DNA from: Desulfuromonadaceae bacterium
Lineage (GTDB): Bacteria > Desulfobacterota > Desulfuromonadia > Geobacterales > Pseudopelobacteraceae
DNA length: 64,000 nt
NCBI GenBank assembly: GCA_028712075.1
Contig: JAQTQX010000004.1
Location: 62,001 to 126,000 of the forward strand
Reading direction: 5' to 3'
Below are positions 77 to 17,257 of this stretch, piece after piece. Below the pieces are notes generated by a model. That model was not told where the DNA came from. It searched no databases and saw nothing but the letters and a program-made list of their open reading frames with translations. Both the position numbers and the translations under genes were made by a program. Position 1 is the stretch's first letter, and every line of letters starts with the position of its first letter.

Positions 77-316
77 TCAGGCATTGCCCTTGGTAAGAAA
101 TGTTTCGTAGATCGCTTCCTGAAGTGCATCCTTGCTGGCCTGTTCCATGTCTGACAATAGAGACTCAACGGCAGCCTTAGCGGCAACAGCTAGCGCAAGA
201 ACCTCATCCGGATAAAAGTGTCCATGACACTCTTGTGCCTTGGTGATAAGTTCCGCCAGGGTATCGAGCTGAGGGCTCCTGCTTTCCGCTTCTCTGAGTT
301 GGTGAAGGTCTCCCAT
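77..316 (-). CDS. Small hypothetical protein, 79 aa, phage-like element
   Basis: I do not recognise this protein. It is soluble, largely helical and alanine/glutamate/leucine rich in its second half, with no cysteine pair and no membrane segment. An AAGGA Shine-Dalgarno sequence sits about eight bases before the ATG. It lies downstream of the giant polyvalent gene, on the same strand, in what should be the late or structural part of the element. Its position suggests an accessory virion or lysis-region protein, but nothing in the sequence proves this. Confidence 0.55.
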   Translation of the reverse strand: MGDLHQLREAESRSPQLDTLAELITKAQECHGHFYPDEVLALAVAAKAAVESLLSDMEQASKDALQEAIYETFLTKGNA

Positions 317-704: not shown

Positions 705-3700
705 TTACTGTGAGGTGTACACTTGCCGGTACCAATCAATTCCCCTGGTCAACGTTTCCAGATCCTGAGCAGAAAGCGACTGCCTGAACTTTGCTCGCTC
801 ACTAAGCGGTAACATTGCCATCGGGTGAGCTTTACCGATGCTTTTACCTATCCCTTGCAGCGTCCCGCCTGCTGCAAGATATTCGTCCTTATACTTTCCC
901 GCTGCTTCAGCATCGCCATAACGCAATGCCTGCTTGTAGTAGTACAGGGCATTGCTGCGGCTTGTCGGTTCAGCTGCCACGGGTTCTTTGCCCGATTTTT
1001 CCAGGTGCTTTATTGCCAGCCGCCGAATATTGTTATAAGCCGCTTCTCCTGGATCATTTTCGTATAGGTACAAGCCTTTCAGGCTATCCAGGTACCCGCG
1101 TGAAGGTTTGCCTTTCATGGCCTTGTATTCGTTTTCCAGTGCCAGAAAACGGGCCGCATGCTCTACTTTGTCGCGGATCGGTACCGGCTTGGTAATATCC
1201 GGATAGATTGACTTGCCGGTAATCAGTTCACCGGCAAGCTTGAAGAAGGGCGCTGAAGCGTTGGCCAGTTTGTTGGGCGTTGCCATAAGCATCTTCTTGG
1301 CCAGTTCACCTGATTCCATTTCGCCGTTTTTGAGCTTACGCAATGTTTCCGGATAATCCTCAAGGCCAAACCATGCCAGGGCATCAGGAAAGGCACCTTG
1401 AAAGCGGGCCGTCATAATATTACCATTGGTTTTGGTACCCAGAATCACATGAAGTTGCTGCTGGTCAGATTCGTTCAGAAGATCCTCTTCATCAGGATGC
1501 ACCAGATGATTGAATGCGCTGACAGTCGCAAACAGCACCTGAGTCAGCATAACCTTTTCTGCTATACCAAGAACTGCGCCTGCAACCTTGCGAGTCCCTA
1601 CGCCTGCCATGCGTGCGGCAGTGCTGCCTGCTTCACCTTTGGTTGCTGCATTCTGAAACAGCCGGTAATAACGAGGGGCGTTGATCTCCATCCAGGAAAA
1701 GAACGGAATGAACCGGGTCCGGATCTTCTCGCCATGAGCTGAAAGGTTCCCGTAATCGCCCAGGAGCTCGCGACTCAATTTAGCGGCCTTATCCTTAACA
1801 TCAATCAAGGCGTCAATCTCGCTCGGTTTGCTGGCCCAATATACCTTCTTTCCCTTTTCAAGCAGCTCTTTGGCTCTGAGGTATGCCGCTTCACGTAACA
1901 GCCCTTCACGAAGCTGAGACAGCCCGGACACCCAATAGAAATATTTTTGAATAATGTTTGGCGGCGCAAGCTTGGAAAGATCACCAGAACGCAAGGCAGC
2001 GATAAATTTTTGTTGGCGTTCTGCATCGCTCAGACGGGAAAAGCCTGGCAGCTTGTTGATATCGGGTATTTCATTGATACTGATCCCGGAATCAATGACG
2101 CCACGATCAAGCATGTCAATTTCATCTTTAGTCATGGCCCGGCCTGCTTTCCTACTCCAGGCGTTTTTCCATGCGGTGTTGAAATGCTTGATAACAATGC
2201 CAGGATCTGCAGCAACAGCTGCGTCAAGATCCCCGCTCATGTTGTTCAGGTTGTATTTGATTGCCCTACGTGGTGAAAGAAGCGTCCAGATCTTCCAGGC
2301 TCCCAACATTTTCTGATTAACGGTGTCGAGCGTGGCGCTTTCTCGGTCGGTTCTGAGACTGTCCAGGGTTTTAGCAAGGCCCTTCGGAATCACTACTTCG
2401 GTTTTCTTGCCGCCCATTATGGTGACTTCTTTGAACTTCTTGGCAATGTCGGCAAAGTTCGGATTCTCGGCAAGGAACTTGGTGACGATCTGCTCCGGAA
2501 GCGTTTGGCCGCGATAGAATATGCTGCCCCGTTCCGGTTGCCATACGGTATGAGTTTCCGGAATCAGGTCTTTCCACTCAGCGCCTTCTTTCTTGGCCTG
2601 CGCCTTCAGTTCAGGCACCAGGTCATTCAGCTTCAGCACTTCATCAAGGGTTTTCTTGGTAGCCAGCTCCTTCAAGCCCTGGCTGAATACTTCAAATTCG
2701 GCTTCGAGAAAGTTTGAATTGATATCAAGCTCGCTCCCCTGCCGCCCCTTTTGCCAGCCACGCTGCTTGTTGCGAACGTCCCCAGCCGTTGACACCCCGG
2801 CCCACCTGCGGGCGTTGGCATACTCAAGCACCTGGTGCCGGAAATATGTGGTGTTGATATCATCAGAATGATACTTGCCGGTTTTTTGATAGTGCGGAAG
2901 CGCATCCGGCTTAAGCACCGATTCAACCGGCAGCAGGTCATTATCAACCAGATCCATGACCAGGGCCTTATTGACATCTGCCCGGCGCCTGATTGCTGCC
3001 ATAATATCAGAATTGGCAGAAACAATTTTTGACACTGCGGCATGATCAGTCTGCAATGATTCCAGCGTGTAGCCGAAAGGCAAGCCGCGCCCCTTGTCAG
3101 CTTCATTCATGAGGTCGTCAAGAATAACCTTGCGGGTGAAAATATCCATCTTCTTGGGGCCGAATGTAGCAGTCAACGCATGCAGGTATTCTGCTGTTTT
3201 TGCCTTTACTGCCACGGCAGAGGATTCGAAGCGACGCAAGATATCTGCTGTGCGCTTATCAGCAAAACTGGAATCTTCCAATTCCGGAAAGTGGCGGGTT
3301 TCGGAAAGCATCCGGTGAATGAATGCCTTTGTCCGCTCCAAAAGGCTGGGGCCATCAGAAAGGCCGTTGGCAGCTTTCCAGCGCTGTTCAACCTGGGGAT
3401 CCACAGAAGAGAAATTTCCGGACTTGTCAATATGCTGCTGCGGGATCTTTACCGTATCGTCACGTTTTACGCCGGGCTTCACAGCAAGGCCGATATCCGG
3501 GGAACCTTCAGGGTAAACGCTGTTTAGGGTTTCGGCTGCTTTCTGGCGGGCGGCCTCGTTAGTTTGACTCACCTTTTTGGGTGAAGCAAAAGGCTTCTTG
3601 GTGTTATCTTCTTTCAGCCACTGTTTGAACTGTTCAACCGATACTTCTGATATTGTGCCAATACGTTGCGGGCCGGTCTTGTCATAATTCATCAGGTACC

Positions 3701-6374
3701 CGTCACGTGCAGCTGCTGGGGAACCAAAACCAATCATCACTTTGCTTTCATCATACGCGCCGGTTTTGGGGTTCACCTGGTCAACCACATACACCTTGCC
3801 GCTCTGATCATCACGCCCGATAAATACGTCAAGATGATCTTTGTCAGCACCGAGCACGCCTTTGATATACCCGTAATGGTGCGCAAGCTCTGTTTCCCAT
3901 GCCCGCCCGGTTTCATCAACACCTTTACGCAACGAGCCTGCCGGGTTCTCAATGGAGATATTGAGGCCGTGCAGGTTGACGTGTCCCTTCTTGTAGTTGC
4001 CCGCCTCGATCTGTGCCTGTGTCGGTTCTGGAATGTTGTTGTGTGGAGATGTTGCGGCTTCATGTGCGGCCGCATCAAGAGGGGTATTGATAGCCTTCAC
4101 GTCCCTTGAACTTTTGGAAGGGAAAACAACAACCTCGTCAGCAGGGACATACTCCCCGGTTCTTGGGTTAAGTGACTCCCGCAGAACTATTCCATCGTAT
4201 CCTTGATCAATAAGAATATCAGTTATTTGCTTTTGTCGTCGGATCTCAGCATCATTTATTGACTCTCCCGGCCTAACCTGAAGCGGATTCCGTTCTGTTT
4301 CGGGGAGTACGTTGAAAACAGTGTCCAGCGATTCCGCATAAAATGGTTTATTCAGTACGATGTCATGTGCTGTGACTTTGCCTGGTGCGTCAGAAAAATC
4401 TTCAGCATAGCTTTTGGCAATATCTTTCTCAGAAGAGAAATAGACACCTTTACCGATTCCACCAGAATGCAGCGGGTCTCTGTCTGCAGTTCCCCGGTAT
4501 AGCGTTTTCTTGTAAGGAACTATATTTAAGTCACCTTTTTCCGATCCTACTGAGTTTGTAATGCGGGATTTTCCCGCATTACTACTTGGAAATTTGAAAG
4601 GGTCGTCCGGATTTACAGCTTCAGAATTTATTTTCTTCTGCTTCCCGTCTGCATCCTTCAGTGTGCCACGGTCAAAATTGATTGCCTGTTCGTGATTCAG
4701 ATCAAACGTAACTCCATCTTTAAGGGTAACACCATCAGGTGAAACTTCAGTGACTTTGAAAACCTCGCCGTTCCTTTTCAGGGTGTCGCCTTCGTCCAGG
4801 TGATAGGCCGGGACTTCTGCAGGCTTGGCCCGTTCGGTAAGGATCATGTTTGTTTCCTGCTGCCGCTTGGCCTGGTGCAGATCCTCAACCATGATACGCT
4901 GATTTGCTGTTACGCCTTCACCGTTGATAATATTGTCAATGGCGCTGATAACCTGCTTTTTGCTGTAGCCCTTATCTTGAAAATACTCCGGGAAGGAACT
5001 TCCCCATGATACGGTTGTTGCACCTGGGGCCTGCTCATTGTAGATACTGGCTCGGCCTCCGGCTTCTCCGTCGCTAATGTCCTGACGCACCGCTTCAAGT
5101 GTGCGCTGCTGGGAAGGATTCAGCTTGACGTCAAAGATTTCTTGCCCGCCGCGTTTTCTGGTTGTGGCTGTGAACTGCTCAACCTTGCCGGGCTTAGTAA
5201 CTGAGGGGGCGACTGTCTCGATTTCTGAAACCGGCACATAACCGGAATTGTCCTTTTCAGAAATAGGGCTTGTTTTTATCGGTATATTTGTGTTCCCCGA
5301 AATTGGGGAGATCAAATTATCTTGCTGATCCACAAACCGATAGCGGGCTTCTGGTGTTTTTACCTGAACCGGTTCAGTAGAGATCTGATCAATCAGAGGT
5401 TCATTTGCTGCAGGTAATACGGCTGCAGCGCTTGTGCCTCTCTCCTGTGCCGCCCGGTACTGCTTCAACAAACTATCCTGGAACTGCGCATCACTGACGC
5501 CGGTATTCTGCATCAAGCCGCGTTGGCCTGATTGCCATAATGATTTGTTGTGCTGAACGGCTTGGTCAAGCTCAGTCGGTTCTTTTGGCGCAACTTCATC
5601 AACAAAGCGAAAGCGCCCCCCTGAATTTTCAGGAGTGTTACTTTCCGGGACAATCGATTCTTGTGCACGGCTGGCAAGATCACGGGCAATATCAGGCTGA
5701 ACGCCTTCCTTGATAAGGTTCTTCCGGATTATCTCCGCTTTTCCTCCACCATTCACTGATAGCAGAGTTCCTGTTATGGCGCTGGCTGCTACATCCTGGG
5801 GCTGAATGCCTCCTTCCGTCATTGCCTGTTCTGCCGCTGTCTGGACACCCATTGTCGAACCCATTGCAGCTGCTTTTGGTAAAGCCGATATGCCTGTGTT
5901 CTCGATACCGTGAAAGACTTTCCCAATACCGAGACGCTTCACACCTTCAATCGCTGCTTTTTCAAGGGCGCCAGGTGCGCCGCCTTCTCGATATCCTTCA
6001 GCGGCCCCTTTGGCGGCAGCATACGGAACGTTCCCCATGAACTCAGCCACGCCGGCAGGGGCAGCGCCGATACCCTGATATATTTTGGCGGGTAGTCCCG
6101 AAGATCCAGCCGCTTCAGCTTTGTCGCCCCAATAGTGCGCACCTTCTTTGTAAATCGAGCTATCAAGGCCAAAAGCATCATTGATAGAGTCAAGGGATTC
6201 ATTAACACCCTGGGCCATACGTGAACCAGCACCGATGATCGTATCGGCAGCGCTTTCAAGCATTCCCTTCGGTTTGGCATGAATTGGGGGATTTTGAAGC
6301 TGATTGTCGTCAATGAAGCGGAATCTTGGTGCAGGGGCCCGCTGTGCAGCATCATCAATAAAGGAAAAGGCCAT
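705..6374 (-). CDS. Giant phage polyvalent protein, 1889 aa (ART-like and pyrophosphatase-like domains)
   Basis: This is a very large soluble protein of the phage 'polyvalent protein' class, thought to be delivered into the host with the genome. The ATG at 6374 is chosen because it lies one base after the stop of the preceding gene. Short motifs FSFIDD, FRFIDD, FRFVDE and YRFVDQ recur at residues about 3, 18, 255 and 345. Residues about 622-765 look like an ADP-ribosyltransferase: LYRGT, GKGVYFSS, GYDGIVLRE, then DEVVVFPS. Residues about 782-925 look like the inorganic-pyrophosphatase-like domain of polyvalent proteins: GHVNLHGLNISIENPAG, HHYGYIKG, DHLDVFIG. The remaining 960 residues are helical with one weakly hydrophobic stretch (MLTQVLFATVSAF). 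Being last of three consecutive genes of rising size suggests a T7 gp16-like ejection role. I see no transglycosylase motif. Domain calls rest on motif recognition only. Confidence 0.75.
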   Translation of the reverse strand: MAFSFIDDAAQRAPAPRFRFIDDNQLQNPPIHAKPKGMLESAADTIIGAGSRMAQGVNESLDSINDAFGLDSSIYKEGAHYWGDKAEAAGSSGLPAKIYQGIGAAPAGVAEFMGNVPYAAAKGAAEGYREGGAPGALEKAAIEGVKRLGIGKVFHGIENTGISALPKAAAMGSTMGVQTAAEQAMTEGGIQPQDVAASAITGTLLSVNGGGKAEIIRKNLIKEGVQPDIARDLASRAQESIVPESNTPENSGGRFRFVDEVAPKEPTELDQAVQHNKSLWQSGQRGLMQNTGVSDAQFQDSLLKQYRAAQERGTSAAAVLPAANEPLIDQISTEPVQVKTPEARYRFVDQQDNLISPISGNTNIPIKTSPISEKDNSGYVPVSEIETVAPSVTKPGKVEQFTATTRKRGGQEIFDVKLNPSQQRTLEAVRQDISDGEAGGRASIYNEQAPGATTVSWGSSFPEYFQDKGYSKKQVISAIDNIINGEGVTANQRIMVEDLHQAKRQQETNMILTERAKPAEVPAYHLDEGDTLKRNGEVFKVTEVSPDGVTLKDGVTFDLNHEQAINFDRGTLKDADGKQKKINSEAVNPDDPFKFPSSNAGKSRITNSVGSEKGDLNIVPYKKTLYRGTADRDPLHSGGIGKGVYFSSEKDIAKSYAEDFSDAPGKVTAHDIVLNKPFYAESLDTVFNVLPETERNPLQVRPGESINDAEIRRQKQITDILIDQGYDGIVLRESLNPRTGEYVPADEVVVFPSKSSRDVKAINTPLDAAAHEAATSPHNNIPEPTQAQIEAGNYKKGHVNLHGLNISIENPAGSLRKGVDETGRAWETELAHHYGYIKGVLGADKDHLDVFIGRDDQSGKVYVVDQVNPKTGAYDESKVMIGFGSPAAARDGYLMNYDKTGPQRIGTISEVSVEQFKQWLKEDNTKKPFASPKKVSQTNEAARQKAAETLNSVYPEGSPDIGLAVKPGVKRDDTVKIPQQHIDKSGNFSSVDPQVEQRWKAANGLSDGPSLLERTKAFIHRMLSETRHFPELEDSSFADKRTADILRRFESSAVAVKAKTAEYLHALTATFGPKKMDIFTRKVILDDLMNEADKGRGLPFGYTLESLQTDHAAVSKIVSANSDIMAAIRRRADVNKALVMDLVDNDLLPVESVLKPDALPHYQKTGKYHSDDINTTYFRHQVLEYANARRWAGVSTAGDVRNKQRGWQKGRQGSELDINSNFLEAEFEVFSQGLKELATKKTLDEVLKLNDLVPELKAQAKKEGAEWKDLIPETHTVWQPERGSIFYRGQTLPEQIVTKFLAENPNFADIAKKFKEVTIMGGKKTEVVIPKGLAKTLDSLRTDRESATLDTVNQKMLGAWKIWTLLSPRRAIKYNLNNMSGDLDAAVAADPGIVIKHFNTAWKNAWSRKAGRAMTKDEIDMLDRGVIDSGISINEIPDINKLPGFSRLSDAERQQKFIAALRSGDLSKLAPPNIIQKYFYWVSGLSQLREGLLREAAYLRAKELLEKGKKVYWASKPSEIDALIDVKDKAAKLSRELLGDYGNLSAHGEKIRTRFIPFFSWMEINAPRYYRLFQNAATKGEAGSTAARMAGVGTRKVAGAVLGIAEKVMLTQVLFATVSAFNHLVHPDEEDLLNESDQQQLHVILGTKTNGNIMTARFQGAFPDALAWFGLEDYPETLRKLKNGEMESGELAKKMLMATPNKLANASAPFFKLAGELITGKSIYPDITKPVPIRDKVEHAARFLALENEYKAMKGKPSRGYLDSLKGLYLYENDPGEAAYNNIRRLAIKHLEKSGKEPVAAEPTSRSNALYYYKQALRYGDAEAAGKYKDEYLAAGGTLQGIGKSIGKAHPMAMLPLSERAKFRQSLSAQDLETLTRGIDWYRQVYTSQ

Positions 6375-6375
6375 G

Positions 6376-7977
6376 TCAATGCACCTCCAACCACTGAGAT
6401 CCGTTTGAGCGGTATTTCTTGCCGGTTGTGTCGTCCTGAATAAGTCGGCCTGCGTGCTGTTTCGCTGGCGGCATAACATCCATAATGCTTGGCTGCTGTG
6501 TCGGTTTTGGACTGACAAAGTTGAAGCCGCTGCCGGGCTTAACGGTTGATTTAAGTTGCTTAATTTCAAGGTTAATTGCGGGAACACTGGGCTTTATACC
6601 TAAGAGCTTTGCAGTCGCGCCTTGTTTTTCTGTAAGGTTTTTAATTGCCCTTTCTTTGATAGAATCTTCTTCCTCCCTGCTGAATGGCCGGTTTGGTAAC
6701 GGCTGTGGTTTTGCGCCCAATTCAGTAGCATCAGCGTTGAGCTGTTCAATCAGAGTAATTGATTCGTTAATTGATTCAGGATCACCGGTTTTCAAAGCGG
6801 CCTGATAGTCACGAACCGCATAATGTAACCGCCGGTTAATTTCGATTTTTGCTCTAACTCTATCTTTACCCGCCCCGGAGGCATCTTTCGGCGCATGCTT
6901 CGCCGTAGGTTTCCCCACCGGAATATCATACCTTTTGGACGCTGGGTTATACTGCATCGCCTGCTCCTGGTCATTACCGACACCAACTGTAACAACCTTG
7001 GGTGCATCTTCATTGGTTTTTGGATTAGACGCCAGCTCCTTTGTGCCGTCAGGAGAGAACGCTTTTGCCCCTTGTGACAGGATTAATGGGTCCTTGCCCT
7101 TGGTCTTTTTGTCCAGCATGGTCGTCGCCATATGCTGCACTACCGCAACCTGGGTTTCATACGGCAGCATTGCCAGCCACTTCATATCCTCTTCGGTCTT
7201 GAGCTCAACCGGACTTTTGCCACTCTGCTCTGCCGCATTCAAAACCGACAACCGCGACCCAGCCTTATGCAGGAACATATCCGACGTTACAACATTCACT
7301 TCATCATCCGGTTCATTGGTGCCTCGCTTGGTAAACGGCACCTCAAGCACGGCTGTTTTATCCTCCGGATCATGTGCCTCCAACATCGGCCGGACCTGCG
7401 CCTTGCCCCCCGCCGGCTTCACCACCTTATAACTGCTCAGGTTCCCGGTCAGCACATACTTCTTGCCGGTTGCCGGATCAGTAAACTCTTTGCCCGCCCG
7501 CCGTTGTGCCGCTTTGGCCAACCCCTCATCGTCAGCAAACTTCTGAAACTCCGGCGGAACGTCCGTCGGCTTCCACTCCTGGGCATACCCATCAGGCAGC
7601 TGGTCCAGCTGACCGGCCAGATTAGCCAAACCGGCAGCCGACTGCCGGGCCTGCTCGATTTCTGTCGGATCAAACGTATTTGGTATGCTGCTATCCTGTA
7701 GATTGACCTTGTGCACCATATCGCGCAGCCCTACTGCGAAACGCTCCCGGTCTTGTGCTTTGCGTTTGCCTTCATCAATAGCCAGTTCAGAAGCAGCCTG
7801 CGCCCGCTGATCAGCATTAACCGCCAGCTGCATACTCTGCTGCTGATAAGCAGAATCTCTCTCGGCTTTCTTTTCGTCCCGCTCGGCCTTCTTTTCCGCT
7901 TGATACATCCCGGTCAGCGACAGGTACGCGTCAAGGCCATCTTTTACCCAATTATTTGTTGTTGGTGCCATGCCCAT
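6376..7977 (-). CDS. Putative phage internal virion/ejection protein, 533 aa (gp15-like by position)
   Basis: I do not recognise this protein by sequence. Residues about 25-75 are strongly charged and Gln/Ala-rich (repeated AERDEKKAERD), predicting a coiled coil. The rest is soluble and Lys/Pro-rich, without membrane segments or enzyme motifs. GGGGAG lies seven bases before the ATG. The TGA is one base from the ATG of the giant gene, so the two are probably translationally coupled. Upstream is a 191-aa Ala/Gly-rich protein. The trio small/medium/giant resembles the podovirus gp14-gp15-gp16 ejection cassette; this is inferred from order and size, not homology. Confidence 0.6.
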   Translation of the reverse strand: MGMAPTTNNWVKDGLDAYLSLTGMYQAEKKAERDEKKAERDSAYQQQSMQLAVNADQRAQAASELAIDEGKRKAQDRERFAVGLRDMVHKVNLQDSSIPNTFDPTEIEQARQSAAGLANLAGQLDQLPDGYAQEWKPTDVPPEFQKFADDEGLAKAAQRRAGKEFTDPATGKKYVLTGNLSSYKVVKPAGGKAQVRPMLEAHDPEDKTAVLEVPFTKRGTNEPDDEVNVVTSDMFLHKAGSRLSVLNAAEQSGKSPVELKTEEDMKWLAMLPYETQVAVVQHMATTMLDKKTKGKDPLILSQGAKAFSPDGTKELASNPKTNEDAPKVVTVGVGNDQEQAMQYNPASKRYDIPVGKPTAKHAPKDASGAGKDRVRAKIEINRRLHYAVRDYQAALKTGDPESINESITLIEQLNADATELGAKPQPLPNRPFSREEEDSIKERAIKNLTEKQGATAKLLGIKPSVPAINLEIKQLKSTVKPGSGFNFVSPKPTQQPSIMDVMPPAKQHAGRLIQDDTTGKKYRSNGSQWLEVH

Positions 7978-8037
7978 GATAATCTCCCCCTACCAATTCG
8001 TTGTTGAGCCATGCCCATGATAATATCCCCTTACCAC
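7954..8037 (-). repeat. Imperfect 41-bp tandem duplication of a ribosome binding site and start codon
   Basis: The block around the start of the 533-aa gene is present twice with a 41-bp period (gccatgcccatgataat at 7967 and again at 8008). Each copy has a purine-rich Shine-Dalgarno and an ATG-GGC-ATG start. Only the proximal copy opens the long frame. The distal copy starts a short out-of-frame peptide of about 24 codons that overlaps the real start. A few substitutions and one indel separate the copies, so the duplication is not recent. Confidence 0.75.
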
Positions 8038-8606
8038 CAGTCAAACATTGACCCAAGTGCATACACGCCCAAACCCGCTGCAGCCGCCAAACCAACACCG
8101 GGAATAAGTGAAGCGGCTCCCATGGTAGAAGTAGCGCCGCTTGCTGCTGCCGTGCCTGCTGCTGCGGATCCTCCAACTGCGGCAGTCGTCCCGGTCGCTG
8201 CAGTCCCAGCCATTAAACCGGTGTCAGCCGCCAGAGCAGTGCCGCCGAACCCCAGGGTACTCGCTCCACCAGTAGCGGCTGCTCCCGACATGGTACTGCC
8301 ACCAACAGTACCGACAGCCCCGAGAGTTCCTGTGGACGCTCCCGCGCTGCCCGAAAGCATGCCTAAACTGCCAAGAGGAATGCCGCCCACCGTCAAACCG
8401 GTCGCCTCCGGGGCCATCGTTCCTATCCCTCTCGCCAAATACGAACCAATCCCCGCAGCCGTCGCATTACGTTGTTTCTCCGCAGACGCCGCTTGCTGCT
8501 TCACGGAATCATTTGTCATATTCCGTTGAGCTTCCAGCTGCGATGCCCCAACCAAACCATTAATAGCCGAATTCTGCATCCGCATGCCGGTTTCTATGAT
8601 ACCCAT
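8031..8606 (-). CDS. Ala/Gly/Thr-rich phage protein, 191 aa (gp14-like by position)
   Basis: The N-terminal 45 residues are amphipathic and Gln/Ala-rich. The following 130 residues are almost entirely Gly, Ala, Ser, Thr and Leu, ending in a hydrophobic segment (GLAAAAGLGVYALGSMFDWW). This is typical of small membrane-interacting phage ejection proteins such as T7 gp14, which is of similar length, but sequence homology cannot be claimed. GGGAGG precedes the ATG with ideal spacing. It is the first gene of the presumed ejection trio. Confidence 0.6.
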   Translation of the reverse strand: MGIIETGMRMQNSAINGLVGASQLEAQRNMTNDSVKQQAASAEKQRNATAAGIGSYLARGIGTMAPEATGLTVGGIPLGSLGMLSGSAGASTGTLGAVGTVGGSTMSGAAATGGASTLGFGGTALAADTGLMAGTAATGTTAAVGGSAAAGTAAASGATSTMGAASLIPGVGLAAAAGLGVYALGSMFDWW

Positions 8607-8666: not shown

Positions 8667-8867
8667 TCACCAAGAGTCAAACAATCCGCCAATTAAGCAC
8701 ATTTCCTCGGTAGTGGTTTCAGTCTCCGAAGAAATGTTGTGAATATCCCGGTCAAAATCTTTGCGGAGTAATAGCGGTCTACTGATCGTTACCAAAGCGG
8801 CCCTCGCTTCCGGGACTTCTAATGCCTCACTATTGGGTGTTTCAGCCATATGGTTTACCGTTTCCAT
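8667..8867 (-). CDS. Small acidic hypothetical protein, 66 aa
   Basis: The ATG at 8867 follows AAGGGGG at four bases. A longer TTG-initiated form (from 8939) lacks a spaced ribosome binding site and was not chosen. The protein is acidic (SETETTTEE near the end) with no recognisable domain. It lies between the primase-helicase block and the presumed ejection genes, on the same strand. Function unknown. Confidence 0.5.
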   Translation of the reverse strand: METVNHMAETPNSEALEVPEARAALVTISRPLLLRKDFDRDIHNISSETETTTEEMCLIGGLFDSW

Positions 8868-8941
8868 TCTGCCCCCTTTTTTGTTGGAATATTTAAAACA
8901 ACCCTTTGCTGGTACCGTTCCTGCTTCCTTCTTTGCCAATC

Positions 8942-9247
8942 CTATGTTAGCAGCGTGTTAAATGTCCTGACGGCTGCACTGACGTCACCGGCAAGGATTG
9001 CTTTGATATGCTCTGACCACGCTTCAAGGTGCTGCAGCTTCACTGAGTCCCACCGACCTCTTAGATCGGGACGATCAAATGAATTCACCACCAACCGGAT
9101 ATCATCAGCAGAAACAGGCCGGGCCAGTTCTGCGCTTATAAGTTTTTCCTCGTGCTTCTCCGATAGAGTCAAGTATTCACCTGGCTTCAACTGCAGCAGC
9201 GCTGAATTGTGGCGTACTTCACACGGTTTCAGGATATGAACGGTCAT
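8942..9247 (-). CDS. Hypothetical phage protein, 101 aa
   Basis: The ATG overlaps the TGA of the primase-helicase gene (ATGA), so it is translationally coupled to it. The protein is small, mixed alpha/beta and soluble, with the segment LKPGEYLTLSEKHEEKLI followed by an amphipathic helical C-terminus. I recognise no family. The coupling suggests a replication accessory or a morphogenesis protein at the junction of the early and late modules, which is inference only. Confidence 0.55.
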   Translation of the reverse strand: MTVHILKPCEVRHNSALLQLKPGEYLTLSEKHEEKLISAELARPVSADDIRLVVNSFDRPDLRGRWDSVKLQHLEAWSEHIKAILAGDVSAAVRTFNTLLT

Positions 9248-11178
9248 TGGTTGTCCTCATCATCAAGGTTGATGTAGTGCGCCGGTCCTGTGTCAGCGGC
9301 CTGGTTGCTTACTACTTGGTCAAGAACGCAGTATTCATGGGGCTTGGAATCGTGGTGTGAATGATATTGAAGGCTCCATTTGTGGAAATAGAGCGCTATT
9401 TTGCCTTCTTCATTACGATCGTCACGAGCCTTAAAGCATTGCAGCAAGGCGTCGGGCATCCGTTCGATTTCGTCGCGGGTGTGCCTGGTTGATTCGCCTG
9501 CTTCGATCTTGGCAAGATCTTCCTCTTTGCAGCGGTTGCGCCACACGCTCCAAATGTTTGACGACAAATCCCCTATGTCGCCGCTGCCCTTAATGTCCAT
9601 TTTTCCTGGAGGGTTTAGCTCGTTCTCACCCTTCCGGGCGTGCGCAACAAGGTGTACGTGACTGTTTGTCTCGTTCACAAAGTCATTGAGAAGATCCAGA
9701 AACTTCTTTTGCGCCGTGTAATCGTCGGAAGGAATGCCGCACTTCAGCAGGCTGTCAATGATGAACTGCTGGACGCCGTAACGCTGATACGCATATTTGA
9801 ACACTTCCAAGATCCGTGAAACGCTGGCGGTACCAACAAGATCAAACATCCAAAGCTTACCGCCCAGCCATTCAAGCGCTGATGTAATCTCGTGGCGTTC
9901 CGGAATCTCTTTACCAAGTGCTTGCCGGGTAAGCCGTGATAGGGTTTTTCGGGGATGCATTTCAAAGCTGGCAACGCAGACGCGTTCGCCCTGGGTCATG
10001 GCGCTAACGGCTACCTGGTTGAGTACCAAAGATTTGCCGTGGCCGTTGATCCCGGTCCATAGGGACACTTCGCCGCGCAGAAACTTTACCGGGCGCTTGC
10101 GCATTTTCCACGGGAGAATGAAACCGGGGAGCTCTCCTGCTGGGGGGTAGAATTCGTCTATTACCGCCTGGCTGAAGGCAAGCGGGGCTTTCAGTTCGCT
10201 GGGGTCTTGTGATTGCGCGGCCGCAACCAGCTTTTCAATGTCAGCGGTCGTCATGCCTTGCTGTTTGCAATCGTTGATATCCTTACAGGGCAGAGTAATG
10301 ACGCGGCAACGGTGACGGCCCAGGCGGTTAATAAGTTCCTCGGTAGCTTTCTGGCCTTCCTCGTCCTGGTCAAGGCTCAACAAGATCTCTTCAAAGCGGT
10401 CAAGGTGCGGAAACTCAGTATCAATCCATTGCTGTTTGCCACCTTTACCGCCTCCGAATGGCACGGACAGCGCCGGGAATCCATAACCGTGATACGTGAT
10501 GGCGTCTAGTTCGCCTTCAGTCAGAATCACGCTGCGGGCATTGTCAGGGAGCGCCTGCCAGCCAAAAAGAATCGGTTCACAGCCAGGTTCAACCAGAGTG
10601 AATTTCTTGCCGTCCTTCCGCTGCAGGTGAAGATATTTCACAGCGACCAGTTCTTTGCCACGGAACGAGGGCAGCACAATCCAGGGCCCTTTCATGGCGT
10701 GTTGTGACTTCCAACCTGGGAACGGCCCTATTTCGGCAATCTCTCCGATACGGTAGGCGCTGATTGATTCGGGAGAAAGACCACGATCCAGCAGATACCG
10801 TTGCACGGCGCCGCCTTCAATTACCTTCTTGGCCGTTTTTGGGGGTACTGGCCGGCGAAAACTTTTATCAGTAAACTTTTCAAATTTCGGCTCCTGAATG
10901 CCCAAGTACTTTTTCGCCTCCTGCAGGGCCTCGGCAATGGAAATGCCCTTGACCGACTGCCAGAGGTCGAGCAGGTCGATACTTTTTCCTCCTTCGGCAA
11001 AGTCAGTAATGCGGCCCTTGTACTGGCCTTCAAGACACGCCTTGCATGACCGGCCCGCCTCACCGGCTATGGAGCCGACAACCCATTCCCGTCCCGCACG
11101 CTTACCGTTCGGTAACAGCATGGCGGCAACATCTTCGACTCGGTCGTTTAGTAGTCTGACAATTTCATGAATTTCCAT
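9244..11178 (-). CDS. Phage primase-helicase (TOPRIM + DnaB-type helicase), 644 aa
   Basis: This is a bifunctional replication enzyme of the T7 gp4/Twinkle type: RNA primer synthesis plus hexameric 5'-3' helicase. Residues about 20-75 include a CxxC-containing DNA-binding region of the DnaG type, incomplete as a zinc ribbon. A TOPRIM domain follows at about 210-310 (VILTEGELDAIT, then SLDQDEEGQ). A RecA/DnaB core starts near 365 with Walker A GINGHGKS and a Walker-B-like hydrophobic strand (QFIIDSLLKCG), then HLVAHARKGE. It begins two bases after the upstream replication-initiator gene and overlaps the 101-aa gene by four bases. This places the element among those with their own replisome. 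Confidence 0.85.
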   Translation of the reverse strand: MEIHEIVRLLNDRVEDVAAMLLPNGKRAGREWVVGSIAGEAGRSCKACLEGQYKGRITDFAEGGKSIDLLDLWQSVKGISIAEALQEAKKYLGIQEPKFEKFTDKSFRRPVPPKTAKKVIEGGAVQRYLLDRGLSPESISAYRIGEIAEIGPFPGWKSQHAMKGPWIVLPSFRGKELVAVKYLHLQRKDGKKFTLVEPGCEPILFGWQALPDNARSVILTEGELDAITYHGYGFPALSVPFGGGKGGKQQWIDTEFPHLDRFEEILLSLDQDEEGQKATEELINRLGRHRCRVITLPCKDINDCKQQGMTTADIEKLVAAAQSQDPSELKAPLAFSQAVIDEFYPPAGELPGFILPWKMRKRPVKFLRGEVSLWTGINGHGKSLVLNQVAVSAMTQGERVCVASFEMHPRKTLSRLTRQALGKEIPERHEITSALEWLGGKLWMFDLVGTASVSRILEVFKYAYQRYGVQQFIIDSLLKCGIPSDDYTAQKKFLDLLNDFVNETNSHVHLVAHARKGENELNPPGKMDIKGSGDIGDLSSNIWSVWRNRCKEEDLAKIEAGESTRHTRDEIERMPDALLQCFKARDDRNEEGKIALYFHKWSLQYHSHHDSKPHEYCVLDQVVSNQAADTGPAHYINLDDEDNQ

Positions 11179-11180
11179 GG

Positions 11181-12056
11181 CTACGTTCCTATAAACATGC
11201 TGTAGCGGTCGTCACTGGTCGCAGCACGTCCGCCTGATGGTGAAGTGGTCTCGTCCTCCCACCGGCGGTTATTCAACCAAGTAGAAGCGTGCGGGATGAA
11301 CTTGCCGCCTTCCTTTTGCCAAGCCTGTTGACATGACTGGCACGCTACGGCAGACATAATCGATGCGACAAGCTCCGGATCTGGATCAAGCTTCTTCCAT
11401 GCCTTAGCTGCGGCTACTTCGTTTTTTTTGCGGGGGTAGGCTTTCCAGAAAGTATCGAAATCGGACAAATGTTTTAAAGTTTTTACTTCTTTTAAAACCT
11501 TCTTCTCTATAGTGTGGGTTTCGCTCTGGGATCCGCCCCGGTGTTCGCCCTGGGTTTCGCATGCGCTTTTTTGATTGTTTTTGATAGTATTAACAGTATG
11601 TTGTGTTATTTGGCTTGTGGGTTTCGCTCTGGTGTTCGCTGGCTTGTTCGCTTCTGTATCCGCCTTTTTGTGGGATCCGTATAGTTCAGGGTTTTGATAA
11701 CTATCGAAATTTAATACAGTAATTGTCATTTTGTTTGCGGGTTTCGCTATACTGATCATTCCGCAATTTACAAACCAGTTGTATGCCGCCCGAACCTGAT
11801 CAACGGTCAATCTGCCAACACGCTGATTGCCGTTTTTGTACAGGCCAACGTTCTGCATTTCCGATATTGAAGTATGTAGTTGTCCACGTTTCAAAATATC
11901 TCCGTCCTTCCAGAAAGCCCGGCAAAGTAGCCATAACCATAACTTCAGATAGTGCGGGGGTTTATTCATTAGCTCTGAATCAAAAATTTTACGGGCAAGC
12001 AAGATGTAACCGCCCTGTATAATTTGAATTTCTCTGTTTGGCGAAACAATGGACAT
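11181..12056 (-). CDS. Phage replication initiator / helicase-loader-like protein, 291 aa
   Basis: The N-terminal half (about 15-125) is a winged-helix module of the phage replication-protein type (KPPHYLKLWLWLLCRAFW, then LTVDQVRAAYNWFVNCG). A polar, Lys/Thr/Gln-rich linker follows. The C-terminal block (FDTFWKAYPRKKNEVAAAKAW, then PHASTWLNNRRWED) is the signature of phage proteins that pair with replicative helicases. Its position directly upstream of the primase-helicase supports an origin-binding or helicase-loading role. The A+T-rich stretch around 11460-11760 inside the gene could host the origin, as in lambda O, though I see no clear iterons. Confidence 0.75.
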   Translation of the reverse strand: MSIVSPNREIQIIQGGYILLARKIFDSELMNKPPHYLKLWLWLLCRAFWKDGDILKRGQLHTSISEMQNVGLYKNGNQRVGRLTVDQVRAAYNWFVNCGMISIAKPANKMTITVLNFDSYQNPELYGSHKKADTEANKPANTRAKPTSQITQHTVNTIKNNQKSACETQGEHRGGSQSETHTIEKKVLKEVKTLKHLSDFDTFWKAYPRKKNEVAAAKAWKKLDPDPELVASIMSAVACQSCQQAWQKEGGKFIPHASTWLNNRRWEDETTSPSGGRAATSDDRYSMFIGT

Positions 12057-12211: not shown

Positions 12212-12271
12212 CGCGTCATGTACTCTTCTTGAATCGCGTCATGTACTGTTCTTGAATCGCGTCTCTTGAAT
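12212..12271. repeat. 23-bp tandem duplication plus 14-bp partial copy at the terS 3' end
   Basis: Bases 12212-12234 and 12235-12257 are near-identical 23-bp units beginning cgcgtcatgtact. A shortened 14-bp unit follows at 12258-12271. Neither length is a multiple of three, so the repeats change the reading frame of the terS C-terminus. Confidence 0.85.
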
Positions 12272-12839
12272 CGCGTCCATTATCGGGTACGTAGATGTTT
12301 AGAGTGGTGCGCTCAATTGTCCCTGAGACTTCGAGCTTTTCCTTACTCAGGCCGATAATCTTTGCCAGTTCGACAGCGGCTTTCAGCCGTTCCGGGACTT
12401 GCGCTATAGCGTGCTTTTTCCCATGCCTGTCCATGACAATTTCAATATCAACTATCGCCGCGGCTTCTGGTGGCAGCTCATGAAGTTCCAGTGGCCGGCC
12501 ATCTTCAGCAACGAATTGGCGGCGATCCACCCCTGCAGTCATAGTCAGAAGTCTCAGGATTGATTGAGCGTCAACAGCGTATCTGTGTTGCAATTCTGTG
12601 CGGATTTCCGTAAGACGCTGCTGCACCTTCTTTGTTTTCATGAGCCGAGATGAATTGGCAAGGGCGGAAGTTTCTGACGATCCGGGATAAGACTTCAGGT
12701 AGGCATCCTTGGCATTGCTTGCGCTCAATACGTACTGCCAGCAAAACGCCTCAGCTTGGGGTTTTAAGTGAGTTATCGCGCCGTATCCCAGCTCACTTTC
12801 TAATGCTGGCAAGGTGGCTTGACCTGGAATGCTACTCAT
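12216..12839 (-). CDS. terS: Terminase small subunit, C-terminus altered by duplication, 207 aa
   Basis: This subunit recognises the packaging site and recruits the large terminase. The region FCWQYVLSASNAKDAYLKSYPG with the following TSALANSSRLMKTKKVQQRL is the typical helix-turn-helix of phage small terminases. The middle (VDRRQFVAEDGRPLELHELP, KLEVSGTIERTTLNIYV) also matches the family. The frame now ends at 12216. Removing one 23-bp repeat would join it to an open frame running to a stop at 12148, adding about 20 residues ending VFGTD. The start overlaps the preceding gene by eight bases. No large terminase is visible here; it is presumably left of the window. Confidence 0.8.
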   Translation of the reverse strand: MSSIPGQATLPALESELGYGAITHLKPQAEAFCWQYVLSASNAKDAYLKSYPGSSETSALANSSRLMKTKKVQQRLTEIRTELQHRYAVDAQSILRLLTMTAGVDRRQFVAEDGRPLELHELPPEAAAIVDIEIVMDRHGKKHAIAQVPERLKAAVELAKIIGLSKEKLEVSGTIERTTLNIYVPDNGRDSRDAIQEQYMTRFKKST

Positions 12840-13323
12840 TAGCGGACTTCTCGCAAGACGCCATTATTGCCGCAAGTCGTTCATTCCACCATTCATTCCA
12901 CCCATGGCGGTCAATTTCGTACCTGACGGGACGCGTGGAGCCGAAAACCCACGTCTGCCCCCTTGCCGCAGCCATCTCGGCAATAGCCTGGCTTGCGCCT
13001 TCCGTGTCTTCAACCCCGGAGGCGTTGCGGACAAATCTCGGCCCACAAAAGCCGCGATGTTGCCACATATATACATTGGCTACATCTAATGTATATATTT
13101 CAGCGAGCAGGTTAAGGATTTCAGCAGCAATCAAATTATATTTCCCGACCTGATCACAGAGCAATTCGCTACCGGCCGACTCCAACTGGCCGGCCAAGGC
13201 ATCACGCCTGCGTTCGGCAGCGTCGAGCGCGGCGACCAGGGCAACTGCGAGAGGATCTTCAATGTAATAAGCCGCCGGGCTGTCCTCGGTCCATGTAGCT
13301 GTTGCTTCACGCAAATCACGCAT
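12832..13323 (-). CDS. Hypothetical phage protein, 163 aa
   Basis: The ATG at 13323 follows AGAGGAG and overlaps the end of the AlpA-like gene by eight bases. A longer upstream frame start was rejected because it would run through that gene. The protein has an alanine-rich helical middle (ALVAALDAAERRRDALAGQL) and a Trp-rich C-terminal part (VYMWQHRGFCGPRF, HGWNEWWNERLAAI). I do not recognise it. It sits between the regulator and terS with overlapping ends, so all three are probably one transcript. Confidence 0.6.
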   Translation of the reverse strand: MRDLREATATWTEDSPAAYYIEDPLAVALVAALDAAERRRDALAGQLESAGSELLCDQVGKYNLIAAEILNLLAEIYTLDVANVYMWQHRGFCGPRFVRNASGVEDTEGASQAIAEMAAARGQTWVFGSTRPVRYEIDRHGWNEWWNERLAAIMASCEKSANE

Positions 13324-13501
13324 GTTTTTGACTCCTCTGATTGATGAAGGTTTCAATAGTGTCGCTCCTCCATCGAGTCGTTGCCACGGAAAGCTTGAAA
13401 GGCGGGGGGAGATCACCGGTTTTGACCATCGCCCAAATTTTCCCACGGCTGACGCCCAAGATTCCAGCGACTTCGCGATCTTTTAAAAGCCTCACGTCCA
13501 T
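13316..13501 (-). CDS. AlpA/excisionase-type HTH regulator, 61 aa
   Basis: This is a short winged helix-turn-helix protein: LLKDREVAGILGVSRGKIWA for the HTH, then a wing and TTRWRSDTIETFI, the usual end of AlpA/phage regulatory proteins. Such proteins act as excisionases or activators of integrase and late genes in P4-like elements. GGAG precedes the ATG. It is the first gene after a terminator and a possible promoter, so it probably heads the transcript through terS. Confidence 0.8.
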   Translation of the reverse strand: MDVRLLKDREVAGILGVSRGKIWAMVKTGDLPPPFKLSVATTRWRSDTIETFINQRSQKHA

Positions 13502-13686: not shown

Positions 13687-14289
13687 TTAAGCTGTCCCTC
13701 TTATGAAGAGATTTAAGTCGATGGTCTTTTTTGATTTTGCGTTTTGAACCTTCATGATCCGGTAAACAGAGGCCACGCCGATTCCCACTTCATCTGCAAT
13801 AGCTTGTTTTGTTTTGCCCTGGGCAATCAATTCCATGACCCTGACGGCCTGCGCCTTGGCGGTCGGCTTGCGCCCTTGATAGCGCCCTGCCTCTTTTGCT
13901 AGGCGGATTCCTTCCTTCTGCCGTTCCAGCATCATAGAGCGTTCGAACTCTGCGATAGCTGCCAGCATGGAAAGCATCAGCTTACCGGTCGGGGTGGAAG
14001 TGTCCAGATTGATATTCAACACCTTGAAGGAAACCTTCTTTGCTTCCAGGGTATCAACGATTTGCAGAAGATGCCGCGTGCTACGGGCGACACGATCCAA
14101 TTTGGTGACAACAACTGTGTCCCCTTCCCGCAGATGGTCAAGCATAGCCGCCAGCTGCGGGCGATCCTGTTTCACTCCGCTGGCTTTCTCTTTAAATACC
14201 TTGTCTACTCCCGCGCCCTGAAGTTGCTCAAGCTGTGCGGTCAGTTCCTGGTCTATTGTGCTTACCCTTGCATAACCGATTTTTGCCAT
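13687..14289 (-). CDS. Serine recombinase (resolvase/invertase family), 200 aa
   Basis: This is a site-specific recombinase using an active-site serine. The catalytic domain shows IGYARVSTIDQ at the N-terminus, with the serine near residue 10, then VVTKLDRVARS and MLAAIAEFERSMMLERQ. The C-terminal part has a helix-turn-helix (KTKQAIADEVGIGVASVYRI). The length is typical for Tn3-type resolvases and DNA invertases. Inverted 13-bp repeats in the 250 bases upstream resemble res subsites. It lies inside the phage element, so it could resolve multimers or invert a segment not visible here. A hairpin terminator follows. Confidence 0.9.
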   Translation of the reverse strand: MAKIGYARVSTIDQELTAQLEQLQGAGVDKVFKEKASGVKQDRPQLAAMLDHLREGDTVVVTKLDRVARSTRHLLQIVDTLEAKKVSFKVLNINLDTSTPTGKLMLSMLAAIAEFERSMMLERQKEGIRLAKEAGRYQGRKPTAKAQAVRVMELIAQGKTKQAIADEVGIGVASVYRIMKVQNAKSKKTIDLNLFIRGTA

Positions 14290-14540: not shown

Positions 14541-14735
14541 TTAATTCACCAATAGCAAAGCATCCGCTGTTTCTTCAACCTGCTTGATGATCAGCTGAAG
14601 GATTGACTTGCAGTAACTAACCTCGCCCGCCTGGATCTGGCTCTTGTTGCTGATATCTTCCAGGAGCATACTCAGGCCGTTGAGTGACTGTTCGATACAT
14701 ATCAGGTCCCCACTTGTTTTTTTGATATCAGCCAT
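14541..14735 (-). CDS. Small hypothetical protein, 64 aa, coupled to radC-XRE
   Basis: The ATG at 14735 has GGAGG seven bases upstream, and the gene overlaps the end of the RadC-XRE gene by eight bases. A longer upstream frame was rejected because it runs through that gene. The protein is a predicted all-helical bundle (CIEQSLNGLSMLLEDISN, then SILQLIIKQVEETADALLLV). It is unrecognised. The coupling suggests a partner of the RadC-XRE protein. Confidence 0.6.
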   Translation of the reverse strand: MADIKKTSGDLICIEQSLNGLSMLLEDISNKSQIQAGEVSYCKSILQLIIKQVEETADALLLVN

Positions 14736-15444
14736 TGCAAGCCTCCGGCGGGGTTTTAAAAGCCAACACCATGCGGTCCACGTCCATTTTAAATGCCTGT
14801 GAGATTTTGTGTATCTCGTCTTTTGTGATTTCTCTATATCCGTTTTCGATCTGCGACAGATATGTCTGTGAAATCCCAGTCTGCCGCGAGAGTTCATTCT
14901 GCTTCATTTTTTGACCAAGGCGCAAGGCACGGATGCAACGCCCAATAGCCACCCTGAGTTTTTGTGCCGGCGAGGCCTCTTTTTCCGCATGAACCCCTCT
15001 GGCCTGATTTTTTGGCTGTGAGTCAAGGCCACCTGCTTCGACCATTGAGAAATACTTATTGTCACCGATTATGATATGGTCAAGCACCTTGATCCCGATC
15101 AATTCACCGGCGTCGCGTAAACGACAGGTTATAGCATTGTCATCAGTGCTGGGGGACGGGTCGCCAGAGGGGTGATTGTGTACACAGATAATTGAGTGGC
15201 TACCGTTATGCACGGCCGCCTTAAATACTTCTCGGGGATGTACTATGGTCTGGCTTAACGATCCGATTGAAACAGTCTCTCGGGCAATAATTCTGTTTTT
15301 GACGTCCAAATGCAACACTACAAAATGTTCACGATCCAGGGCCGCCATCTCCCGGCATGTCTCGTAAACTGCCTTGGGGCTTGTGTACATCAAGTGGCTT
15401 TCACGTACTTCGCAGGATATTTTTACCAGTTTCAATTCTTGCAT
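14728..15444 (-). CDS. RadC-family JAB/MPN+ protein fused to a C-terminal XRE helix-turn-helix
   Basis: Residues about 15-145 are a RadC domain with the metalloprotease-like signature VHNHPSGDPSPSTDD (H-x-H...S-x-x-D). RadC proteins are common on mobile elements; their biochemical role is unsettled. After a polar linker, residues about 165-235 form an XRE-type DNA-binding domain (QNELSRQTGISQTYLSQIEN). The ATG at 15444 is preferred because GGGGGAG lies immediately upstream; an ATG 11 codons earlier (15477) is possible. The fusion may be a self-regulating repressor. A 10-bp inverted repeat upstream is a candidate operator. Confidence 0.8.
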   Translation of the reverse strand: MQELKLVKISCEVRESHLMYTSPKAVYETCREMAALDREHFVVLHLDVKNRIIARETVSIGSLSQTIVHPREVFKAAVHNGSHSIICVHNHPSGDPSPSTDDNAITCRLRDAGELIGIKVLDHIIIGDNKYFSMVEAGGLDSQPKNQARGVHAEKEASPAQKLRVAIGRCIRALRLGQKMKQNELSRQTGISQTYLSQIENGYREITKDEIHKISQAFKMDVDRMVLAFKTPPEACNG

Positions 15445-15558
15445 AGTCTCCCCCTGTTCTGGATTATTTATGCTCATCAGGGTAAGCCGGAATATTTTAT
15501 TTACAAGCTAGTAAAATATTTTTTATTTGTATATAATCGCTTTTAAATCAATATGTTA

Positions 15559-16947: not shown

Positions 16948-17049
16948 CGCTTTATCCTCCCTTTTGGGGGCCTCTGATTTTCTATTGGGGCTTTTACACA
17001 CAGAAACGGCCCCCAAAAAACACAGATTCAATGATACCAAATGAGACAT

Positions 17050-17143
17050 CATAAGACAATAAACAATAAATCAACAGCGTAGCACAAATAAAAAAGCCAC
17101 TAAATTCAGTGACTTAAATACAACATAAGACAACATAAGACAA
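17050..17143. repeat. Repeated cataagacaa decamers, candidate integrase arm-type sites
   Basis: The decamer occurs at 17050-17059 and as a perfect tandem pair at 17124-17143, all in the same orientation, in the non-coding space between the integrase start and tRNA-Met. Phage integrases of this class bind direct repeats of this size flanking the core site, so these are plausible arm sites. Confidence 0.5.
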
Positions 17144-17173: not shown

Positions 17174-17183
17174 CGGTCAATGG

Positions 17184-17220
17184 TGGCGGTGCAGAGATTT
17201 GAACTCCGGACCTAGCGAAT
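17184..17220. other. Probable attachment site within the tRNA-Met 3' half
   Basis: The P4-type integrase lies next to the 3' end of the tRNA, the standard insertion site for this family. The core should be a direct repeat of part of the tRNA 3' half. The second copy must lie outside the window on the left, so exact borders cannot be set. Confidence 0.45.
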
Positions 17221-17257
17221 ATGAGTCGCTTGCTCTGACCAGCTGAGCTACACCGCC
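17184..17257 (-). tRNA. tRNA-Met (anticodon CAT)
   Basis: Read on the minus strand, the 74 bases fold as a standard cloverleaf. The acceptor GGCGGTG pairs with CACCGCC. The D arm is GCTC/GAGC, the anticodon stem AGCGA/TCGCT with loop CTCATAT (CAT at positions 34-36), and the T arm CGGAG/CTCTG with TTCAAAT loop. The 3' CCA is not encoded. The D-loop lacks initiator hallmarks, so this is elongator Met or a lysidine-modified Ile-CAU tRNA. The 3' end faces the integrase. Confidence 0.93.

Follow-up and report, generated by a model that had tools for sequence, protein, structure and literature searches.

What is a gene trio that resembles the DNA-ejection module of a podovirus doing in a bacterial genome that offers no podovirus around it? 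The question arises in a draft genome of a Desulfuromonadaceae bacterium (assembly GCA_028712075.1), of which we analyzed a stretch of 64,000 nt (contig JAQTQX010000004.1, positions 62,001-126,000), hereafter the window. The original prediction for this locus had compared three consecutive genes with podovirus gp14-gp15-gp16 and regarded the last product as a polyvalent effector, one that combines several domains and would enter the host together with the genome. Our analysis places the trio as the terminal module of an element of about 17 kb, which we judge, with moderate confidence, to be a phage satellite: its own terminase small subunit (TerS) would aid packaging in the shell of a podovirus-like helper, and the element would supply its own ejection proteins. 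More tentatively, we propose a family of satellites that pirate a podovirus shell with a DNA-ejection apparatus of their own and a giant injected effector; such a satellite would itself decide on genome entry and on what enters. In what follows, G000 denotes the window's own genome, other G numbers comparison genomes, L numbers loci, and P numbers protein relatives.

The three genes, of 191, 533, and 1889 aa, were confirmed on the minus strand as a gp14-like gene (8031..8606), a gp15-like gene (6376..7977), and a gene for a gp16-like giant polyvalent protein (705..6374), separated by gaps of 53 and 1 nt. A purine-rich, Shine-Dalgarno-like stretch can be recognized by eye upstream of each start; the giant gene is counted from the ATG at 6374, and the longest open reading frame (ORF), of 1960 aa, begins at a GTG further upstream. 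The gp14-like protein is Gly/Ala-rich, is 47% identical to its copy in the comparison genome G022, and has one hydrophobic segment (residues 161-189); the gp15-like protein is likewise homologous to a G022 copy, and the conserved half of the gp16-like protein has a single hydrophobic segment (residues 1597-1620). Judged from their sequences, the two segments might fit what a membrane conduit needs. Judged by position, the trio has the order and rising size of podovirus gp14-gp15-gp16 at the end of a structural block: 191/533/1889 in the window, 201/592/1752 in G022, 125/600/2219 in G043, and 199/459/2708 in the IMG/VR phage L052. No rise is seen across the first pair in G033 (404/401/1941) and L056 (319/263/1652).

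The podovirus-like arrangement thus stood, with similar arrangements in the phages G033, G043, L052, and G129. In G033 and G043 the structural block ends in a gp15-like and gp16-like pair, preceded by one further gene, and in G033 a primase-helicase-related gene lies upstream of the terminase large subunit (TerL), portal, and SU10 capsid genes. The order in G129 is TerS, a 544-aa TerL (phrog_38, E=2.3e-35), SU10 portal, structural protein, tail-fibre gene, gp15-like and gp16-like genes; no capsid gene was identified there. Its TerS is 37% identical to that of the window, and the InPase domain of its gp16-like protein 60%. In L052 the trio stands with TerL, which follows a TerS-like gene.

As a podovirus cassette, however, the locus did not hold: the trio closes a small element with replication genes and TerS, in which no TerL, portal, capsid, or tail gene was detectable, a gap that the original prediction had left unmentioned. 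A tRNA-Met gene (17181..17257, minus strand), presumably the attachment region, adjoins a gene for a tyrosine integrase (15685..17052). The genes for a serine resolvase/invertase (13687..14289), a 204-aa ORF of no assigned function (12832..13446), TerS (Terminase_2, 12216..12839, overlapped by the 204-aa ORF), a replication initiator or helicase loader-like protein (11181..12056), and a primase-helicase with Toprim and AAA domains (9244..11178; 67-68% identical to the G062 and G069 copies) follow, all on the minus strand. TerL is not next to TerS; the replication genes sit between TerS and the trio. None of the 14 genes of the window element belongs to a TerL, portal, capsid, tail, or lysis family by Pfam or PHROGs, and the only Terminase_2 match in the host genome is the element's own TerS. 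Spacing runs from -8 to 159 nt between the 204-aa ORF and the giant gene and is at most 60 nt from the initiator downward, the trio included, and from sequence this part of the element looks like one or two transcription runs.

We then consider what the giant protein brings. The pyrophosphatase-like domain of the original prediction was borne out by both profile and fold, and we are certain of it: Pfam InPase (PF18823) covers residues 786-921 (E=1.6e-52, 177.4 bits against a cut-off of 26.8), and in an AlphaFold model of residues 595-960 the ten-residue blocks of InPase mostly have predicted confidence (pLDDT) values of 85-96. Compared with the PDB, the model gave 223 matches at E<=10, 10 of them at E<=0.001; the best 50 of the 223 are inorganic pyrophosphatases or variants, one titled 'inorganic phosphatase'. 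TM-scores among the matches listed are 0.17-0.23 when normalized by query length and do not exceed 0.46 when normalized by target length. An ADP-ribosyltransferase (ART)-like domain is likely by sequence, more weakly so than InPase. ART-PolyVal (PF18760) reaches 28.4 bits at residues 637-753, under its cut-off of 31.2, and the precomputed Pfam annotation of the database copy P0002 lists it together with InPase. Since 7 of the 12 ten-residue blocks of the ART stretch fall below 50 in the model, the domain is without structural support here. Among 126 proteins, only P0004 and P0015 align over most of the ART stretch, besides the protein itself and its database copy, and P0008 over the end only. 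Read by eye, the giant protein, P0004, and P0015 share an R, an aromatic residue, and a DEVVVF strand with DE near the last position, and the first position is thus R against H in the published ART-PolyVal active-site triad, H-Y-D (PMC5512222). With at least two unrelated domains in one large polypeptide, InPase confirmed and an ART-like domain likely though below cut-off, the label 'polyvalent' fits.

The remainder of the protein is modular. Residues 1-238 and 365-588 are common to the G022 element (70% identity over 240 aa and 67% over 230 aa), whereas the conserved C-terminal half, about residues 985-1889, is not. Of 7991 candidates scored in a search of 5.8 billion proteins, 395 matched, and aligning 35 members placed every one of the 35 invariant positions at residue 1087 or beyond. 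Among the best 120 matches, which were listed, precomputed Pfam domains differ from relative to relative and include InPase, ART-PolyVal, GGDEF, RadC, and others. The RadC label occurs in P0061, P0068, P0075, and P0087, and some relatives carry PF13871 and PF13872, which we take to be helicase-type. As a separate observation, P0018-P0020, P0041, and P0067 carry a GGDEF (cyclic-di-GMP synthase) domain, and GGDEF within polyvalent proteins has been described before (PMC5512222).

Where do relatives of these proteins occur? A DNA search of phage records gave no match, and single-protein scans of the viral_contigs set with gp15, P0001, and the G022 gp16 found no relatives. In cultured phage records gp14, gp15, and the C-terminal half of gp16 were unmatched at the protein level, and the TerS query gave one weak match only. 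The whole giant protein matches 467 cultured phage records, none across 80% of its length; the best 20 of the 467 cover 9-14% of it, around the InPase stretch. Three PHROG matches with virion or lysis names (phrog_20705 'virion structural protein', phrog_4660 'minor head protein', and phrog_938 'endolysin') all cover that same stretch, as phage relatives of InPase would, and Phage_attach (PF05354) is a sub-threshold match. The C-terminal half was found in 0 of 50,697 phage records and at 15 loci of one genome collection. A search of the phylum matched 5 of 395 genomes, the four besides the window's own through the InPase stretch only, and a database search with the gp15-like protein returned five matches including itself, one of them on a 3.7-Mb contig.

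In another explanation, virion delivery is not the role of the giant protein: produced in the host, it would be a mobile defence or a domesticated polyvalent protein that acts against incoming phages or spoils helper virions. Polyvalent proteins free of phage context have indeed been read as host-acquired defences (PMC5512222), and interference with helpers is common among satellites (PMC6092414). We nevertheless hold this explanation to be quite unlikely. PADLOC returned no match for any of the trio, the trio keeps the order of phage virion modules and stands in a tight same-strand run with replication genes, and its C-terminal half is common to many viral contigs: of 191 candidate stretches found with this half in IMG/VR, 147 were confirmed and 80 retained.

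If the element is a satellite, is it one of a family? Among 141 genomes of the order, the giant-protein queries P0001 (E<=1e-15) and P0044 (E<=1e-20) found matches in 7 and 10, respectively, 13 genomes in union; G043 was added as the fourteenth through a looser search at 1e-10, which matched 6 of 76 genomes of the family. Four of the 14 genomes hold contiguous capsid-less elements between host-type genes (G000, G022, G001, and G073), two hold similar gene sets split over contigs (G062 and G069), three hold decayed pieces (G060, G040, and G044), three show the giant gene in phage context (G033, G043, and G129), and two are fragments, namely G047, in which TerL and portal share a contig and the giant protein is found on separate ones, and G136, with a gp15-gp16-like pair on a 7-kb contig. 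Pfam identified the host-type flanks of the window and the one to the right of G022; those of G001, of G073, and to the left of G022 were judged by eye from translations. Measured gene to gene, the elements span 13.2 kb (G001), 16.0 kb (G022), and 17.0 kb (window); that of G073 spans 18.3 kb between direct repeats of 46 bp (43/46 identical), one copy of which adjoins tRNA-Met. By way of the integrase the elements adjoin tRNA-Met, tRNA-Leu, or tmRNA. The replication genes come after TerS in the G000, G001, G062, and G069 elements, with a primase-helicase in the window, G062, and G069, a DnaB-like helicase in G022, G001, and G073, and a 262-aa gene of G062 that PHROGs identify as a replication initiator. 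G022 has a helix-turn-helix (HTH) regulator on the opposite strand; the opposite-strand genes of G062, G069, and G073 are related to each other, their family unassigned. At the gp15 and gp14 positions, G073 and G062 have genes of 421/423 aa and 200/203 aa for which no match to those of the window was found.

Two details of these relatives deserve separate mention. The 421-aa gene that precedes the giant gene in G073 (L157:17906-19171) encodes eight IAG motifs, seven within the first 170 residues, possibly a repeat-based scaffold or a processing signal. On contig G062:C53 (L135:8061-15925) an ORF of 2469 aa runs opposite to the replication genes and overlaps an oppositely directed C-terminal fragment of another giant protein, and the C-terminal piece after the large ORF is of the G022 type; the arrangement may reflect inversion, decay, or an assembly fault, and the contig was not counted as intact.

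Among the 101 loci L026-L126, queries for integrase, replication, TerS, and capsid-type genes gave matches in 17, three of which (L041-L043) are pieces of phages already counted; besides these three, TerL-like genes were found only in L052 and L070. Two of the loci were considered as satellites and set aside: L057 has integrase- and primase-like genes and L028 has DnaB beside a gp15-gp16-like pair, yet neither is a clear satellite. L028 is a 13-kb contig from a Bacteroidetes bin, in which the pair is followed by the DnaB-type gene with no recognized virion gene in view.

The spread of capsid-less elements bears on the possibility that the window element is a prophage remnant, that is, a podovirus-like prophage that lost its TerL, capsid, and tail genes and is otherwise decaying. 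Decayed pieces do exist in G060, G040, and G044, and phages have genes related to TerS, to InPase, and to the giant gene. The gene order, however, is not that of a simple deletion: replication genes stand after TerS in the elements, and therefore no single deletion of a G129-type order suffices. The capsid-less type recurs in six genomes, where its integrases neighbour at least three different RNA genes. Furthermore, all six giant ORFs entered in a selection test are open, these having been picked as intact elements, and the ratios of nonsynonymous to synonymous divergence (dN/dS) for gp16 are 0.17 (G073/G062), 0.15 (G073/G069), and 0.13 (G062/G069), calculated over 1874/1874, 2075/2092, and 1847/1874 aligned codons, respectively, with poorly aligned windows dropped. 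In these three pairs the giant gene is under purifying selection; in the other pairs silent sites are near or at saturation, or too little sequence is alignable.

An element that spread after its hosts diverged also speaks against a remnant. In G073 and G069, two species that share the tRNA-Met site, synonymous divergence (dS) is 0.28, 0.21, and 0.08 for gp16, integrase, and resolvase, respectively, compared with 0.56 for the neighbouring argS, and G060 shows the same trend (integrase 0.43-0.49 versus argS 0.76-0.84). With this one host gene as a yardstick, dS is lower in the element than in argS, and the element is therefore younger in these hosts than their split. The G062 giant protein is 92% identical to that of G073 but lies beside a tmRNA gene, and its integrase is only 65% identical. 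Taken together, these results make a remnant unlikely and are consistent with a satellite.

A further explanation is a split or unfinished podovirus, whose structural genes would be located at another genomic site or missing through an assembly gap. The host genome is a draft of 53 contigs, and genome-wide probes miss some phage types. Its completeness is 99.82%, however, and the probes found no match to SU10_MCP, SU10_portal, or G129-type TerL in it; four elements, moreover, are contiguous between host-type genes. We regard this explanation as very improbable. The sensitivity of the probes can be gauged from four phage-bearing genomes, in which SU10_MCP finds one (G033) and SU10_portal three (G043, G047, and G129); the G129 TerL query recovers G129 and G047 only and misses the TerLs of G033 and G043, which are present by PHROGs.

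Several observations weigh against the satellite interpretation. Because the probes miss some known phages, the genome-wide absence of virion genes is weakened as evidence; the SU10_MCP search covered genomes other than G001, G062, G069, and G073, and most of the genomes compared are drafts. No helper phage of the element is known, and searches of the element-bearing host genomes turned up no SU10-type portal, so that a helper would have to be lytic or belong to some other type of phage. The gene set is not uniform: TerS was not detected in the G022 and G073 elements, gp14 and gp15 had no matches in the G001 element, and no tRNA was found near the G022 integrase. Flanking repeats were found in one of the four contiguous elements (G073) and not in the window, G001, or G022; the same test gave nothing for G060 and a 30/35 hairpin-type match between two contigs for G069. 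In a search for the empty site by synteny, the neighbour gene with a CxxCxxCC motif was present in 35 of 39 genus genomes; a scan of 17 of 19 non-window loci showed no tRNA at that place, the left-flank genes were in none of the 19 within the stretch examined, and no empty site emerged. Not every gene looks young, as dS is 0.84 for the G062/G069 primase-helicase and 0.68 (dN/dS 0.31) for the 421/423-aa gene of G073/G062, with no host yardstick for G062. Finally, a profile of the gp16 family, the only one of the trio searched in this way, matched zero phage proteins in the PDB, and the predicted designation 'ejection protein' is based on position, size order, and family context.

Between the integrase and the resolvase lie a gene for a RadC-like JAB domain fused to a Cro/CI-type HTH (14728..15477), which has a homologue within the G001 element and is a possible element regulator, and a doubtful 118-aa ORF that overlaps it (14541..14897). 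A 101-aa ORF (8942..9247), homologues of which come after the primase-helicase in G062 and G069, and a 90-aa ORF of no assigned function (8667..8939) precede the trio. Past the giant gene come a 79-aa ORF near the far end of the element (77..316), a PEP-CTERM protein gene, and a gene for a bacterial PH-domain protein; all four ORFs and the RadC-HTH gene are on the minus strand. The left boundary lies between the region of the 79-aa ORF and about 1.7 kb beyond the window. The G+C profile showed no clear boundary. In a search for an attachment repeat, the 40 kb to the left yielded no shared exact 14-mer, and local matching around the far end gave nothing convincing. The PEP-CTERM protein gene (L003:18564-19283), just beyond the far end, is either a host gene or cargo of the element.

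How would such a satellite work? In phage T7, the capsid houses gp14, gp15, and gp16, which form a conduit once ejected. From the gene content of the element and its maintenance by selection, we infer that a helper phage would trigger the element and that satellite TerS would steer the helper TerL to satellite DNA. The gp14-15-16 proteins of the satellite would enter the helper procapsid in place of the core proteins of the helper; on infection they would form the conduit and carry InPase and the ART-like domain into the new cell, which would favour establishment of the satellite. A role in interference, in which these proteins spoil helper virions, is a close alternative.

The element can be compared with several known systems. 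Phage-inducible chromosomal islands (PICIs) measure about 15 kb and have an integrase, a replication module, and optionally TerS, whereas structural genes of phages are absent; prophages never use their attachment sites, and a helper phage induces them and suffers interference from them (PMC6092414). The window element resembles them in size class, integrase, replication genes, and TerS without TerL, and a capsid or lysis gene is found in neither. It differs by an ejection-like module with a giant protein of 1.7-2.1 thousand residues and lacks the divergent master repressor; the likeness is one of description. The trio is probably virion-type and would then break the PICI feature of having no structural gene, and we therefore do not file the element as a PICI. 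Reduced satellites are also known as phage-inducible chromosomal minimalist islands (PMC10803314). AH14b of Pseudomonas, a 16.8-kb satellite with integrase and primase and with virion proteins supplied by the helper, has no terminase gene, in contrast to our element, and none of its proteins was detected in particles (PMC4936722). Capsid-forming PICIs and the Streptomyces satellites MulchRoom and MiniFlayer likewise bring part of the virion, namely capsid, portal, and both terminase subunits (PMC10690885, in whose available text the word 'ejection' does not occur). Where capsid-forming PICIs have their own capsid, portal, and large terminase, our element has TerS and an ejection-like part instead, and would be of a complementary kind. 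SU10-like podoviruses likewise close their structural block with a gp15-gp16-like pair, and G129 has a homologous TerS; the element is without their capsid, portal, TerL, and tail genes.

The published polyvalent proteins (PMC5512222) likewise unite InPase and ART-like domains in a single giant polypeptide and show modular swapping. There they occur in phages, in conjugative elements, or without distinguishing neighbours, and the word 'satellite' is absent from the available main text; here the protein occurs in a satellite-like element. In the open-access PMC literature we found no pairing of satellites with ejection, internal virion, or polyvalent proteins, which is not proof of novelty; 'ejection protein' stands beside satellites in the available texts only in reference lists, such as in a title on gp44 of phage 80alpha. 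Known satellite functions include capsid remodelling, redirected packaging, and the blocking of helpers, and some families supply a capsid of their own. If our proposal is true, entry itself would be a satellite function, which could affect the site of establishment and protect incoming satellite DNA. Some polyvalent proteins that lack phage context and have been read as host-acquired remnants would gain a home, and the delivery of polyvalent proteins would become testable with a small element.

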